A program made the translations under genes and the position numbers. From Alphaproteobacteria bacterium (GTDB lineage: Bacteria > Pseudomonadota > Alphaproteobacteria > JAAEOK01), in assembly GCA_024244705.1 (NCBI GenBank), contig JAAEOK010000003.1, positions 1 to 40,520 on the forward strand: a stretch of 40,520 nucleotides of DNA, in the 5' to 3' direction. Shown here in pieces: positions 4,304-11,964 of this stretch. Every line of letters begins with the position of its first letter. Position 1 is the stretch's first letter. A model generated the notes under the pieces. It did no database searches, was not told where the DNA came from, and was given only the letters and a program-made list of their open reading frames with translations.

Positions 4304-6385
4304 TCAGTCCTCGGCGCGGGTGCACCAGGCGCGCCAGGCCGTACGCACGGCGCCCTCGAAACGGCGCGCGAAGCCGGGCCCGGCGGTCAACGGAGAGCGG
4401 TCGAGCCGTTCGCGCATGGTACGGCGCAGCTCGGCGAGCCTTTCCGGCGCGGCGGCCAACTCCGCCGCCCGGCGGGCCAGATCGGGGCCGTCCCGGCACA
4501 CCAGCTCCGGCAAACCGGCGGCGGTGAGGATCGAGGCGCCGACCCGCGACACATGCGCCGCGCCGGCAACGGTCAGCACCGGCACCCCCATCCACAACGC
4601 TTCGCAGGTCGTCGTGGTGCCGTTGTAGGGCGTCGGGTCGAGGGCGATATCGATGTCGCCGTAGGCGGCCAGATGGGTCCGCGGCTCGTCGCCGCCGGCA
4701 CGCAGGTCGAGCCGCTCCGCGTCGATCCCATGATCGGCGAAACGCGCGATCAAAGACCGGCGCACCTCGGGCGCCTTGAGGAAGCCGAATTTCACCACCA
4801 GGCGCGCCGCGGGCACCGCGCCCAGCACCGCCGACCACAGCGCGATGGTGGTCTCGCTCAGCTTCATCGTGTTGTTGAACGAGCCGAAGGTGGGAGAACC
4901 GGCGGCGGCCATCGCCGGCGGCGCGATCGGCGGCGCGTCGGCGCGCGGGCGGTAGCAGAGGAAACAGGGCTCGAGCCGCAGCAGGGTCTCGCTATGCCAC
5001 GCCTCTGTGGCACCGGGCGGGTCGGCGACGGCGTCGGTCAGCCGGTAGTCCATCGTCGTCAGCCCGGTGGTCGCCGGATAGCCGAGATAGGCGATCTGTA
5101 CCGGCGCCGCGCGCGCGGCGAAGACCAGGGCGCGGTTGCCCACGGTCCGCCCCGACAGATCGACCAGCACGTCGATGCCGAGGCCGCGGATCAGTTCGAC
5201 GATTTCGGCATCGGCGGCCCCGGCGATGTTGTGCCAACCATCGGCCAACGCCTGGAGGCGGCGCGTGGTCTCGTCGCCACCGGTGCCGGAATCGAAGCAG
5301 GTGATCTCGATTGCCGCGCCATCATGGGCCTCGAGCAACGGCTCGAGGAAGTAGGTCACCGAGTGGGTGCGCAGATCGGCGGAGACCAGGCCGACCTTGA
5401 GCCGGCGGTCCGGGTCGGGCGGGTTGGCGAATGGCGGCGCCGCGGCGGCGTATCGGTCGGCATGACGCCGGGCCCAGGCCCGGTGAGCGTCGGCGACGTC
5501 CCGCGGCGTCGCCCGGTCGTCATAGAGCAGCGCCATGTTGGCGTTGGATTCGGCGACCGAATCCCGCGGTTGCAACGTTGCCGCGCGGCCGAAGGCGTCG
5601 ATCGCCAGGGCGATGTTGCCGCGGTTCAGCTCCACCATGCCGAGACCGCGATAGGCGGCGGCGTCGCGGGGATCGATCGCGACCAGCTTGCGCAGCGTCC
5701 GCTCGGCCTCGTCGAGGCGCTGAAGTTGCCGCAGGGTCTTGGCATGTATGTGGAGCAGGTCGCGGTCGTCCGGCGCCGCCGCGCGCGCGCGATCGAGTAC
5801 TCGCTCGGCATCGTCGAACCGCCCGGAGACGATCAGGGCGCGGGCGTAATCGGCCTGCACGTCGGGCGCGGCGGGAGCCCGGGCGGCGGCCTTCTCGGCG
5901 CGAGCCAGGCCGTCCGCGACGGCGCCGGTCTCGGCCAACAGGCGGCCGGTCCGCGCTTCCAGGAACGGCGCGTCCGGTTCGCCATCGAGGGCGCCCTGGT
6001 AACAGCGAAGGGCAGCGGTCTTGGCACTATTCTGCAAAAAAATATCGGCGGCCTGACGGCATACGCCCGCGTCCTCGGGATCGACGCCGACCGCCGCTTC
6101 GCACGCCGCGACGGCTTGCTCCGATCGGCCGGCCGCGCTCAGGCATCCGGCGTACATCAGCCAGGCGTTCGTGTTCCTGGGCTCGATCGCCAGCGCCCGC
6201 TCCAGGGGATGCAACGCCTCCTCGGGACGATTCTCGGCGCGGGCCACGACACCGAGCAGATAGAGCACCGTCACATTGTTGGGATGGTCGCGAAACAGAT
6301 CGCGCAGGAGTTCCTCGGCCTCGCCCCAGGCGGCTCGGCGCAGGCGCTCATGGACGCCGCCCAGGCGTTGCTGCAAATCGTTCAC
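4304..6385 (-). CDS. TPR-repeat O-GlcNAc transferase-like glycosyltransferase (GT41, SPINDLY type), copy 2
   Basis: Residues about 10-290 are a run of TPR helices. The rest is a GT41 catalytic region: THSVTYFLEP (His 341), PVQIAYLGYP, FGSFNN, and GTTTTCEALWMG at about 589-600. The family transfers a sugar from a nucleotide sugar to Ser/Thr or other protein targets. I chose GTG 6385 because it overlaps the upstream stop as GTGA and aligns residue for residue with the start of the paralogue; an in-frame GTG at 6424 would add 13 residues. Where the paralogue has VDLAGHT, this copy has VDLSGRT, so a usually conserved His is Arg (residue about 413). It may be active with altered specificity, or impaired. 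Confidence 0.88.
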   Translation of the reverse strand: MNDLQQRLGGVHERLRRAAWGEAEELLRDLFRDHPNNVTVLYLLGVVARAENRPEEALHPLERALAIEPRNTNAWLMYAGCLSAAGRSEQAVAACEAAVGVDPEDAGVCRQAADIFLQNSAKTAALRCYQGALDGEPDAPFLEARTGRLLAETGAVADGLARAEKAAARAPAAPDVQADYARALIVSGRFDDAERVLDRARAAAPDDRDLLHIHAKTLRQLQRLDEAERTLRKLVAIDPRDAAAYRGLGMVELNRGNIALAIDAFGRAATLQPRDSVAESNANMALLYDDRATPRDVADAHRAWARRHADRYAAAAPPFANPPDPDRRLKVGLVSADLRTHSVTYFLEPLLEAHDGAAIEITCFDSGTGGDETTRRLQALADGWHNIAGAADAEIVELIRGLGIDVLVDLSGRTVGNRALVFAARAAPVQIAYLGYPATTGLTTMDYRLTDAVADPPGATEAWHSETLLRLEPCFLCYRPRADAPPIAPPAMAAAGSPTFGSFNNTMKLSETTIALWSAVLGAVPAARLVVKFGFLKAPEVRRSLIARFADHGIDAERLDLRAGGDEPRTHLAAYGDIDIALDPTPYNGTTTTCEALWMGVPVLTVAGAAHVSRVGASILTAAGLPELVCRDGPDLARRAAELAAAPERLAELRRTMRERLDRSPLTAGPGFARRFEGAVRTAWRAWCTRAED

Positions 6386-8466
6386 CGCCCCGGGTCCGGC
6401 GTTGCCGCGCAATTGGCGTGCCACATGCCGCGATAGGCCGCCTCCAGCCGGCGGGTGAACCCGGCGCCGTCGAGCAACGGCGAAGCCTGCAGGTCCGGGC
6501 GCAGTCCGCGGCGCAACTCATGGCGACGGCGGCGGTCATCGGCGAGCGCGACCGCGGTCTCGACATAGGAGTCCGTCGAAGCGGCGGCCAGGTCGGCGAG
6601 CCCGGCGGCCGCGAGCAACGACGCGCCGACCCGAGCGACGTGCGAATCGCCGACCCTGCTGACGACCGGAACCCCCATCCACAGCGCCTCGCAGGTCGTC
6701 GTCGTGCCGCAATAGGGAAACGTGTCGAGGGCGATATCGACCTCGGCGTAGGTCTCTAGATGGGCGCCGAACCCGGCGACCGGGGGGCGAATGATGAGCC
6801 TGTCCGGCGGCACGCCGGCGGCGGCGAGGCGGTCGACCAGGCGGGCCCGGACGGCATCGTCGGCGAGGCCGAGCGTCTTCAACAACAAGCGGCTGTCGCC
6901 GGACTCGCCCAGAATCCGGGCCCAGGCGGCAAGCGCCGCGTCGCTCAACTTGGCGATGTTGTTGAACGAACCGAAGGTGACATAACCGTTCGCCGCGTCG
7001 GGTGCGGCGGCGACCGCGGGGCTGTCGGCGTCCGGCCCATAGCACAGGAAGCAATGGGGGAGCCGCACCAGGCGCTCGCTATAGAGGCCGTCGGCGCCGG
7101 GCGGGTCGGCCACGGCATCGGTCACGCGGTAATCGACGGTCGTCAGGCCGGTTGTGTCGGGATAGCCGAGATAGGTGACCTGGACCGGCGCCGGCCGGCG
7201 CGCCAGAACATCGAGGCGTCCACCGCCGGTGTGGCCGGCGAGATCGACCAGCACATCGATCCGTAGATCCCGAACCAGCGCCGCGCAATCGTCATCGGTC
7301 ATCCCGGCCACCGAGTGCCACGACGCGCAATACCCACGCAGGCGTTCGGAAACTTTGTCAGGCCGCAGGACCATCGACAACACCACCGGTTCGATCGCGT
7401 CGCGGTCGTGATGGCGCAGGATCGGCTCGATGAAATAGCCGACCGAGTGGCGCCGTAGATCGGCCGACAGGTAGCCGATGCGGAGGCGGCGGTCGGGGTC
7501 GCGGCCCGCCCCCCCGCGCGCGGGCAGGGTGGCGACCGATGCCTCCACCCGTCGCCCCCAATCGAGATGGGCCGCGGCAATCGTGGCCGGCGTGAGATCG
7601 GGAGCATAGTGCAGCGCAAGCAGGCGGTTGCGTGCCGCCGAACCGACCGGATCGATCTTGCGCCCGGCGTCGAATTCGCGCAGCGCGTCGCCGACGCGCC
7701 CCTGACCGAGCAAGGCGAGTCCGAGGCGGCCGCGGATCTCGGCATCGTCCGGTCGCAGGTCCGCCGCATAGGAGAGATTATCCACGGCCTCGGTGAACCG
7801 GTTCTGGGCGCGCAGGATCTTGGCCGCATTCATCCGCACGCCGATCCTATCGGGGAACAGCGCAACCGCCCGGCGGGCTAACGCCAGGGCGGCTTCGGTG
7901 TCGGACAAGATCGATCGGGCCTCGGCCAGGGCCAGAATGGTGTTGGCATTGTCGGGGGCCTTCGCCGCCGCGTCTTCGAGCACCGGGATCGCTGCCTCGG
8001 CGTTGCCCGTTTGCACCAATGCAACGCCGTAGCGCGTCGCGATGGGCGGCGACGCCTCCCCGGCGGCGATGGCGCGGCGATAGAGTATTGCCGCGCCGGC
8101 CATGTCCTGTCCGTCAAAGCAGATGTCGCCACGTCTCGACAACGCCTCGCCGTTGTCGGGATCGATGTCGAGGACGGCGGCATAGAGCGCGTTCGCCGCC
8201 GAGCCGTCGCCCGCGCGCTGGCGGCTGCCGGCGAGGAGATTGAGAATGTGAACATCGCCCGGGCTGAGGGCACGGGCCGCTTCGAGATGGTCGATCGCTT
8301 CGTCGAGCCGACCCGCGGCGCGGGCGGCGACGCCGAGCAGGTAGGGAAAGGTGGCGTCGCCCGGGTGCTCCGAGGCCAACGCACGGAAACGTGCCGCCGC
8401 CTCGTCGAGGCGACCCGCCTGCAACAAACGCTGCGCCTCTTTCAGCCGCTCGGCCGTCTCCGCCAT
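6382..8466 (-). CDS. TPR-repeat O-GlcNAc transferase-like glycosyltransferase (GT41, SPINDLY type), copy 1
   Basis: This 694-residue protein opens with TPR units up to about residue 290. The GT41 region follows: RRHSVGYFIEP (His 340), VDLAGHT (411-413 is GHT), PVQVTYLGYPDTTG, FGSFNN and GTTTTCEALWMG. All motifs expected of the family are present. It is the upstream partner of a tandem pair with the gene ending at 4304, the two linked by a GTGA start-stop overlap, so they are surely cotranscribed. The proteins are similar throughout, which indicates a local gene duplication. No flagellin or other obvious acceptor lies nearby, so the substrate is unknown. The ATG at 8466 lacks a strong ribosome site. 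Confidence 0.9.
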   Translation of the reverse strand: MAETAERLKEAQRLLQAGRLDEAAARFRALASEHPGDATFPYLLGVAARAAGRLDEAIDHLEAARALSPGDVHILNLLAGSRQRAGDGSAANALYAAVLDIDPDNGEALSRRGDICFDGQDMAGAAILYRRAIAAGEASPPIATRYGVALVQTGNAEAAIPVLEDAAAKAPDNANTILALAEARSILSDTEAALALARRAVALFPDRIGVRMNAAKILRAQNRFTEAVDNLSYAADLRPDDAEIRGRLGLALLGQGRVGDALREFDAGRKIDPVGSAARNRLLALHYAPDLTPATIAAAHLDWGRRVEASVATLPARGGAGRDPDRRLRIGYLSADLRRHSVGYFIEPILRHHDRDAIEPVVLSMVLRPDKVSERLRGYCASWHSVAGMTDDDCAALVRDLRIDVLVDLAGHTGGGRLDVLARRPAPVQVTYLGYPDTTGLTTVDYRVTDAVADPPGADGLYSERLVRLPHCFLCYGPDADSPAVAAAPDAANGYVTFGSFNNIAKLSDAALAAWARILGESGDSRLLLKTLGLADDAVRARLVDRLAAAGVPPDRLIIRPPVAGFGAHLETYAEVDIALDTFPYCGTTTTCEALWMGVPVVSRVGDSHVARVGASLLAAAGLADLAAASTDSYVETAVALADDRRRRHELRRGLRPDLQASPLLDGAGFTRRLEAAYRGMWHANCAATPDPGR

Positions 8467-10553: not shown

Positions 10554-11064
10554 GGCCGGTCTGTCCAAGCACCTTTGCCGTTCCGGGGTACGCCCATACA
10601 ATCGAACGCCAGTTATACGATACCTAGTCCAGCGGAGGGTAGCCGGTATCTAACCCAGGAAACTAGCCAGGATGCGTTCGACCGCGGCGCCCAATGGCGT
10701 GATAGTTGGGTCATGCGCCTTTCGGTGATTTCCCACCTTACGACAATAGAGGATGGAGACATCGCCATTGATGCGACTCTGAAGACCTGAAAACGTATCG
10801 GTAGACAGGACTTCAAGAAGTGAGCAATGGCGCCAGACGGTGATGTGAGACTGTCTGAGTTTGTCTTCAGGTCCTATGTTTTGATGGTCAGGATCGCCGA
10901 TCTCGTGGAGGCCATAGGCGCTGGTACGCGTATCCGCGAGCCTTTGAAACTGATACGCTCGCCGGGCCACTATCAGGCCGCTATGAGCTTCAATGATCGC
11001 ATGCGGCCCGGCGTCCAAAGAGGCAATTGACCGACCACACTCAAGCCAACGAAAGGAACGTCCA
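10554..11064. other. unassigned stretch of about 510 bases, AT-richer
   Basis: Several open frames cross this segment (minus 10650-11078; plus 10827-11030), but none resembles a family I know, and none has a convincing ribosome site. Base composition is lower in GC than in the flanking genes. It may hold the ParB-like gene's promoter, eroded coding sequence, or nothing. Confidence 0.4.
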
Positions 11065-11964
11065 ATATTCATTCGCATTGGCTTCGAATTCGCCGTCGAC
11101 TGTCCGAAACCGACACCTATGCTCCTGGCGTTGTACCCCCACCCTTCGAACGATCGTCGGATGATCGGATTGGATCATATTCGGACGGAGCCCGAGACCA
11201 CCATCGAGGAATATACGGACATGTTCGGAAACCGATGCGCTCGTCTCCAGGCGCCGCCCGGGGCAACGACGCTTTGGTCCGACTGCATCGTGGAGGATAC
11301 CGGCGAGCCGGATGAATTCAATTGGAACGCGCGTCAGCACGAGATCGTGGATCTTCCGGTCGAGACGCTGGCGTATCTGACGGCCAGCCGGTATTGCGAA
11401 AGCGATGAGTTCATCGCGAAAGCCTGGGAAATGTTCGGCACCACGCCACCCGGATGGGCCCGGGCTCAGGCAATATCTAACTGGGTGCACAATCACGTCA
11501 TCTTCGGGTATCGGTTCGGCCGGCCAACGAAGACCGCGGTTGACGTGTTTCGGGAGGGTACGGGCGTATGTCGCGATTTCGCTCATTTGTTCATCGCCTT
11601 ATGCCGCGCGATGAACATTCCGGCGCGGTACGCGAGCGGCTATCTCAGCGATATCGGCGCGAAAGCGGAAGGCGCCGGCGATTTCTGCGCGTGGAGCGAG
11701 GTCTACCTGGAAGGGCGATGGTACGCCTTCGATCCCCGACACAATACGCCGCGTATCGGACGCATCCTCATGGTGCGCGGACGCGATGCCGCCAACGTGG
11801 CGATGATAACGGCTTTCGGCGATTACCTGTTGACGCAATTAAAGGTCTGGACCGAGAAGGTCGGTGAATCCGTATCGGAGAGCGAGCTCATCGAAGCCCT
11901 GCAAACTCGTCCGGCCACCGAGGCATTGGTCCTCGACCAGTCTTCCGGCCGGTTGCACATGTGA
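11065..11964 (+). CDS. transglutaminase-like protein with catalytic His replaced by Cys; start codon unclear
   Basis: The protein resembles the bacterial transglutaminase-like (COG1305-type) cysteine hydrolases: a beta-rich N-domain (FIRIGFEF, PKPTPMLLALYPHPS), then GTGVCRDFAHLFIALCR with the nucleophile Cys (codon 11569-11571) and FDPRHNTPRIGR with the expected Asp (about residue 223). The third residue of the triad should be His in DFHAW. Here it is DFCAW, with a TGC codon at 11686-11688. Family starts align with MxIRIG; at that point this gene reads ATA (11065), seven bases after AAAGGA. Alternatives are ATG 10993 (24 extra residues) or ATG 11119. It could be a degenerating or repurposed paralogue. 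Confidence 0.75.
   Translation: MFIRIGFEFAVDCPKPTPMLLALYPHPSNDRRMIGLDHIRTEPETTIEEYTDMFGNRCARLQAPPGATTLWSDCIVEDTGEPDEFNWNARQHEIVDLPVETLAYLTASRYCESDEFIAKAWEMFGTTPPGWARAQAISNWVHNHVIFGYRFGRPTKTAVDVFREGTGVCRDFAHLFIALCRAMNIPARYASGYLSDIGAKAEGAGDFCAWSEVYLEGRWYAFDPRHNTPRIGRILMVRGRDAANVAMITAFGDYLLTQLKVWTEKVGESVSESELIEALQTRPATEALVLDQSSGRLHM

Follow-up and report, generated by a model that had tools for sequence, protein, structure and literature searches.

The window, which is the whole stretch of 40,520 nucleotides analysed here (contig JAAEOK010000003.1 of an alphaproteobacterial assembly), bears on its forward strand a gene for a transglutaminase-fold protein where Cys occupies the position of the catalytic His and the proposed initiation codon is ATA. 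The sequence reads as an open frame from an ATG at 10993 via 11065 to the TGA at 11962-11964, and the intact frame of about 300 codons described in an earlier sequence-only reading was confirmed. The features are as follows:

10993..10995, + strand: alternative in-frame ATG, not conserved, judged not to be the start
11052..11057, + strand: SD-like AAAGGA; best anti-SD duplex at the ATA −5.6 kcal/mol (AAAGGAA, spacer 6 in that calculation)
11064..11076, + strand: start region AATAYTCATTCGC, common to ten ATA genes with small changes; its sole exact match in the window
11065..11067, + strand: ATA, proposed initiation codon (read as fMet), aligned with the ATG/GTG/TTG starts of relatives
11065..11964, + strand: His-less transglutaminase-fold gene, 299 codons plus stop, AUA start proposed
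11509..11511, + strand: Tyr149, which marks the His-less family (Y in 100 of 101 family rows; His-type rows S 6, P 4, Y 1)
11569..11571, + strand: nucleophile Cys169 (GVCRDFAH), C in 101/101 family rows, aligned to the Cys of PDB 3isr
11686..11688, + strand: Cys208 at the catalytic-His position (codon TGC; DFCAW at 11680-11694, within GDFCAWSE), aligned to DFHAC of 3isr
11731..11733, + strand: Asp223 of FDPR, D in 100 of 101 rows, one row being cut off
11731..11763, + strand: motif D223-x-R225-x-N227-x-x-R230-x-G-R233; the Asp also occurs in His-type relatives, the Arg and Asn residues being characteristic of the His-less family

The window protein matched the Pfam profile PF01841 (Transglut_core) with E 2.6e-23 and 82.8 bits against a cut-off of 23. 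The nearest solved structure, 3isr, a putative cysteine protease/transglutaminase-like protein of Cytophaga hutchinsonii (E 4.5e-48; Z 19.1, rmsd 4.0, 246 aligned), has the same fold over most of its length and the same Cys and Asp, but it bears His where the family has Cys, Ser, Ala or Asn. An AlphaFold model built from 16 sequences (mean pLDDT 72.4) was used as a basis for the fold and strand order only. NCBIfam held no family for the window protein and gave one weak match for one of 16 members. A motif scan of the window found no second gene of this kind; the same genome encodes two distant paralogues at 28% and 25% identity, of which the one in L002 has the sequence of a His-type THAW protein. 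As to a viral origin, no relative was found among the viral contigs searched, and four phage records matched the protein in part, the best with E 6e-22.

To describe the active site we searched the fetched loci with a profile, which at a score above 120 gave 101 family rows with proteins of roughly 265-300 residues. In an even draw of Alphaproteobacteria, at least 51 of 385 genomes, the window's own included, contained a match with E no higher than 1e-50. The position of the catalytic His is taken by C in 36 rows, S in 29, A in 29 and N in 5, with H in a single row (L113) and one row cut off; thus one of these four residues replaces the His in 99 of the 100 readable rows. The added residues are nearly constant (Arg233 in 99 rows, Arg225 and Arg230 in 98 each, Asn227 in 92), whereas in a comparison of 71 His-less with 11 His-type rows (L018, L019 and the second paralogue of L021 being left out) the latter bore S or T at 225, mostly T or M at 227, mostly P (one R) at 230 and mostly F or M at 233. 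The His is replaced family-wide and the Tyr and Arg-rich motif stand where His-type rows have other residues, thus indicating that the loss of the His is accompanied by the gain of a motif. As judged from the alignment, the loss belongs to the whole alphaproteobacterial family and not to the window gene alone. His174 was considered as a substitute base and rejected: it is also found in the 11 His-type rows and is replaced by Gln in 8 of the 101 family rows (His in 93).

These data bear out the earlier claims that the nucleophile Cys and the Asp are present and that DFHAW has become DFCAW. The further claim of a change needing two base substitutions holds for the codons, since CAY to TGY does need two; a direct step from His to Cys in this gene need not have occurred, because the family has Cys, Ser, Ala and Asn at this site. 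The window gene belongs to a clade of 17 rows, and DFCAW, whose conservation had been proposed as a check, was found in 16 of them, while the 17th (L018) ends at the contig end before the motif. Orthologues combining DFHAW with ATG, which might have pointed to decay in one strain, are absent from the clade, and its five ATG members carry DFCAW.

The Cys in place of the His could also mean that the enzyme is active and that its Cys208 and Cys169 make up a redox-switchable pair which only the Cys-bearing members possess. Both residues do lie at aligned active-site positions and more than a third of the rows have Cys at 208; however, the other members have Ser, Ala or Asn there within the same surrounding motif, and we regard such a pair as rather unlikely. 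The protein appears likelier to be a remodelled enzyme, or a partner of another protein, than a dead enzyme. We infer that, instead of acting as an ordinary transglutaminase or protease, it either is an enzyme of a non-canonical kind or partners a His-bearing paralogue. Among the 20 plasmid records listed, members of the family mostly bear the annotation 'transglutaminase family protein' or none; with the catalytic His missing from nearly every readable row and a residue signature of the family's own in nearly all of them, the transfer of an enzyme function by annotation is unsafe.

We then turn to the start. The scan of genome contigs gave 35 loci encoding relatives, and the codon aligned with the ATA of the window is ATA in nine others (L004-L008, L010, L011, L016, L018), which come from nine other species and are all titled as metagenome assemblies (MAG), and ATG (L012, L013, L015, L017) or TTG (L009, L014) in other near relatives. 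The sequence-only reading had placed the ATA at the position where relatives start, with AAAGGA seven bases before it, and both observations proved correct. Searches of several orders for orthologues at E 1e-120 gave matches in 1/15, 7/61, at least 12/397, 1/17 and 4/24 genomes and no ATA carriers beyond the ten; at the level of the window genome's own family and order, the search covered that genome alone. In a tree of 37 proteins calculated with codon 1 omitted, ten ATA, five ATG and two TTG genes make up one 17-row clade with a support of 100/100, so that seven of its 17 members use ATG or TTG and AUA is not needed everywhere. The ATA label needs two changes on this tree (range 1-3 in the bootstrap), and none of 500 shuffles was as low. 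One origin of the ATA is possible, a single change being obtained in 22% of 200 bootstrap trees. The long branches of L113 and L021b meet on the tree and their placement is unsure.

Elsewhere in the ten genes, ATA accounts for 15 of their 159 remaining Ile codons. Codon 1 is constant in 9/9 comparisons among the ATA genes and none of the seven other Ile-invariant codons is, codon 3 (always ATT) aside, although the ten-gene group was defined by its ATA and this constancy is therefore partly circular. The case for AUA rests instead on its position matching the canonical starts, on closed upstream frames in relatives and on how seldom the label changes along the tree. Initiation at AUA in the window gene is suggested by this pattern.

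The gene for initiation factor IF3 in the same lineage offers a comparison. In the window's own genome the start of infC reads AAGGAGG-AACTAC-ATA-GCA-CGA-CCA-CCC-ATT-AAC, where four codons separate the preceding stop from the ATA. There were 25 infC matches, from this genome and 24 of 28 genomes searched (four had no match); L127 and L135 were left unread, and in the remaining 23 the start, taken by position before the conserved N-terminus, is ATA in 14, ATC in 8 and ATT in 1. In ten of the 23 (L093, L128, L129, L136, L138, L139, L141, L143, L144, L148) at most five codons, none of them canonical, separate the stop from this start. Some of the other genes have a canonical codon upstream or an in-frame ATG a few codons inside, and there the reading by position is less sure, least of all in L142, the one with ATT. 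For nine of the ten carriers of the ATA in the transglutaminase-fold gene the infC start could be read: it is ATA in the window genome, L005, L006 and L010 and ATC in L004, L008, L011, L016 and L018. The infC codon thus differs among the carriers, and the transglutaminase-fold gene keeps ATA whichever of the two infC uses.

A different account accepts the AUA as the start but supposes that it was fixed by drift in one or a few ancestors and is merely tolerated, with no regulatory meaning. The small number of ATA origins on the tree fits this account, as does the fact that 34 of the 172 amino-acid-invariant codons keep one spelling within the ATA group anyway; moreover, the SD of the ATA genes is not clearly stronger than that of the canonical relatives, and no leader structure is evident. 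Against it, ATA becomes ATG by one transition, yet the label changed only twice among carriers whose pairwise differences amount to 8-27% in protein and 0.22-0.62 at fourfold sites. In addition, infC of these genomes keeps ATA, ATC or ATT, which indicates that such starts are maintained in this lineage. Drift is a serious possibility, which we hold to be the less probable one.

Translation might, in another account, begin at the upstream ATG 10993, so that the ATA would be an ordinary Ile codon. The frame is indeed open from this ATG in the window, and in-frame canonical codons also lie upstream in L005, L011, L016 and L018, whose upstream frames, like that of the window, are not closed in the manner of the other carriers. 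In L004, L006, L007, L008 and L010, however, a stop occurs 4-11 codons upstream of the ATA with no ATG, GTG, TTG or CTG in between, which led us to reject this start; besides, the extension is not conserved, an SD-like element directly precedes the ATA, and relatives begin with ATG or TTG at the very codon of the ATA. We consider initiation at 10993 highly improbable. The next in-frame ATG downstream is codon 19, where seven of the ten ATA genes show no SD duplex; a start there would delete the first predicted strand (residues 2-13 of the AlphaFold model).

The AGG of the SD is invariant across the ten aligned leaders. The best duplexes at the ATA range from −4.4 to −8.3 kcal/mol (mean −6.65) in the ten genes versus a mean of −2.8 at 1500 random positions of the window; the −5.6 kcal/mol of the window gene is middling, as 13% of the random positions reach −5.5. 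The seven canonical-start relatives are similar (mean −5.8), so there is little sign that the ATA genes have compensated with a stronger SD. Nine single-sequence folds gave no evident leader structure (z from −1.17 to +0.62), and no Rfam family was found in the window. In one locus, L007 (about 803-860), a 26-base tandem duplication contains the SD, the ATA and codons 2-4, and a frame of 13 codons, opened by the ATA of the first copy, would end just past the second copy.

The same duplexes raise the question of codon 3, an ATT that is also non-canonical: if initiation took place there, the ATA would belong to the leader. All ten ATA genes have this ATT, and the SD energy fits it as well as codon 1 or slightly better, but the spacer would be 9-11 bases as opposed to 5-6 at codon 1, and the canonical starts of relatives fall on codon 1, their codon 3 being the same conserved Ile within the coding part. 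A start at codon 3 seems very improbable to us.

Compared with eight ATA relatives, the window gene showed dN/dS of 0.10-0.17, and by this measure it is intact and under purifying selection. A pseudogene or an assembly error in this strain was rejected and is nearly negligible as an explanation: the non-canonical start and the absent His do resemble damage, but both oddities reappear in separate assemblies of other species under the same constraint on orthologues. The sequence-only reading had left the choice between decay and repurposing with a rare start. Decay is contradicted by the conservation and the dN/dS, the rare start gains from the ATA in nine orthologues, and repurposing is suggested by the co-gained residues. 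Low, controlled production appears likelier than a decaying gene.

Taken together, the data are best explained by a selected family gene with a remodelled Cys/Asp site and a Tyr/Arg motif, which would start at an SD-preceded AUA and give a low, IF3-responsive yield. We put the probability of this reading at roughly 0.64; our confidence in the AUA start and in the remodelling is tempered because the SD also fits codon 3 and because the ATA group is circularly defined. As a mechanism, IF3-limited translation of the kind described for infC, sigR and ccpN seems most suitable. The SD would recruit the 30S subunit to the AUA, with which the initiator tRNA would pair imperfectly; IF3 would then reject most AUA complexes, so that little protein is made, and more would be made when IF3 discrimination is relaxed. 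In the product, the canonical Cys-His-Asp site would have been remodelled by keeping Cys and Asp, exchanging His for a small residue (Cys in this gene) and adding the Tyr and the Arg-rich motif. Both IF3 dependence and low dosage are what such a start would predict. More tentatively, and with doubt prevailing, the clade may keep the AUA as an IF3-gated dosage control that holds the Cys/Asp/Arg-site protein scarce relative to a His-bearing paralogue which it regulates or works with. If this were true, a gene other than infC would be tied to initiation fidelity in Alphaproteobacteria.

Only a few bacterial genes other than infC are known in which a non-canonical start is purposely retained; sigR, ccpN and pcnB are named in the papers cited here. 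According to the excerpt of PMC13009471, infC and ccpN of S. aureus have AUA starts, and AUA reporters of ccpN and citZ give about 10% of the AUG level in poor medium, ccpN reaching up to 30% in rich medium. In the excerpt of PMC5472188, the GTC start of sigR is repressed by IF3 and is present in 32 of 34 Streptomyces; it also states that start prediction restricted to ATG, GTG and TTG cannot find non-canonical starts. The window gene resembles infC, sigR and ccpN in having a codon other than AUG, GUG or UUG at a conserved start with an SD just upstream, and infC of its own genome reads AUA. It differs in that it encodes a transglutaminase-fold protein and no translation or transcription factor, that its start is proposed from the sequence, and that seven of the 17 clade members have ATG or TTG. 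For IF3-dependent control, a gene other than infC with a conserved AUA would provide a natural test case.

As to the active site, the His-type THAW paralogues annotated as 'transglutaminase family protein' belong to the same superfamily, but they keep the His and have no Arg-rich motif. EPB42 (protein 4.2) has lost its nucleophile, whereas the window family keeps Cys and Asp and loses the His. EPB42 likewise combines a transglutaminase fold with an incomplete triad and is inactive, as given in the excerpt of PMC10318531; the same excerpt describes papain-fold proteins where the His is moved or replaced, some of these enzymes working with altered triads and others being inactive. Among the matches listed, with subscription papers mostly outside the scope, nothing was found in the literature on this family or on AUA starts in Alphaproteobacteria.

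The idea of a partner protein comes from the neighbourhood. Of the 64 loci read, mostly with flanks of 1.5 kb and with no correction for kinship, 13 have a His-bearing paralogue close to the His-less gene; five of the 69 loci (L018, L048, L056, L061 and L068) were unread, and the count includes neither the window nor the short stretches L094-L124. Examples are a divergent pair on a plasmid of Roseibium and a tandem pair on one of Methylocapsa. In the window no His-type paralogue adjoins the gene. Around the window gene and L004-L021, in flanks of up to 3 kb and sometimes shorter, no neighbour besides the gene and its shadow frames is common to three or more loci.

Start codons elsewhere in the family require some caution. 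CTG stands at the aligned first codon of L048 and L061, both of them distant members of the His-less family; ATG, GTG and TTG are absent among the upstream codons inspected in L048, and the nearest ATG in L061 lies at least 16 codons upstream. L060 counts as ATA in the family alignments, yet it has an ATG one codon earlier, and in L045, L057, L062, L121 and L150 the aligned codon is non-canonical and preceded, at a distance of a few codons, by an in-frame ATG, in L152 by a TTG. On two Roseibium plasmids (L153:6001-6096, L158:3001-3096) the annotated start lies 32 codons inside the gene, with an ATG present at the conserved start.

PADLOC gave no defence match for four window proteins, among them a HEPN_AbiU2 domain protein encoded at 1181-2191 on the minus strand. 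Two adjoining TPR proteins with glycosyltransferase family 41 domains are encoded on the same strand at 4304-6424 and 6382-8466. In the flanks of L046, L053, L055 and L059, four His-less genes have a common neighbour ORF, which we take to resemble N-formylglutamate amidohydrolase from its LLVCDHGGN stretch. The His-less gene lies near DUF1488, Crp/Fnr and HflK/HflC genes on plasmid L153 and near catalase, cold-shock protein, DUF1488 and HtpG genes on plasmid L155, surroundings that resemble a stress-tolerance region.
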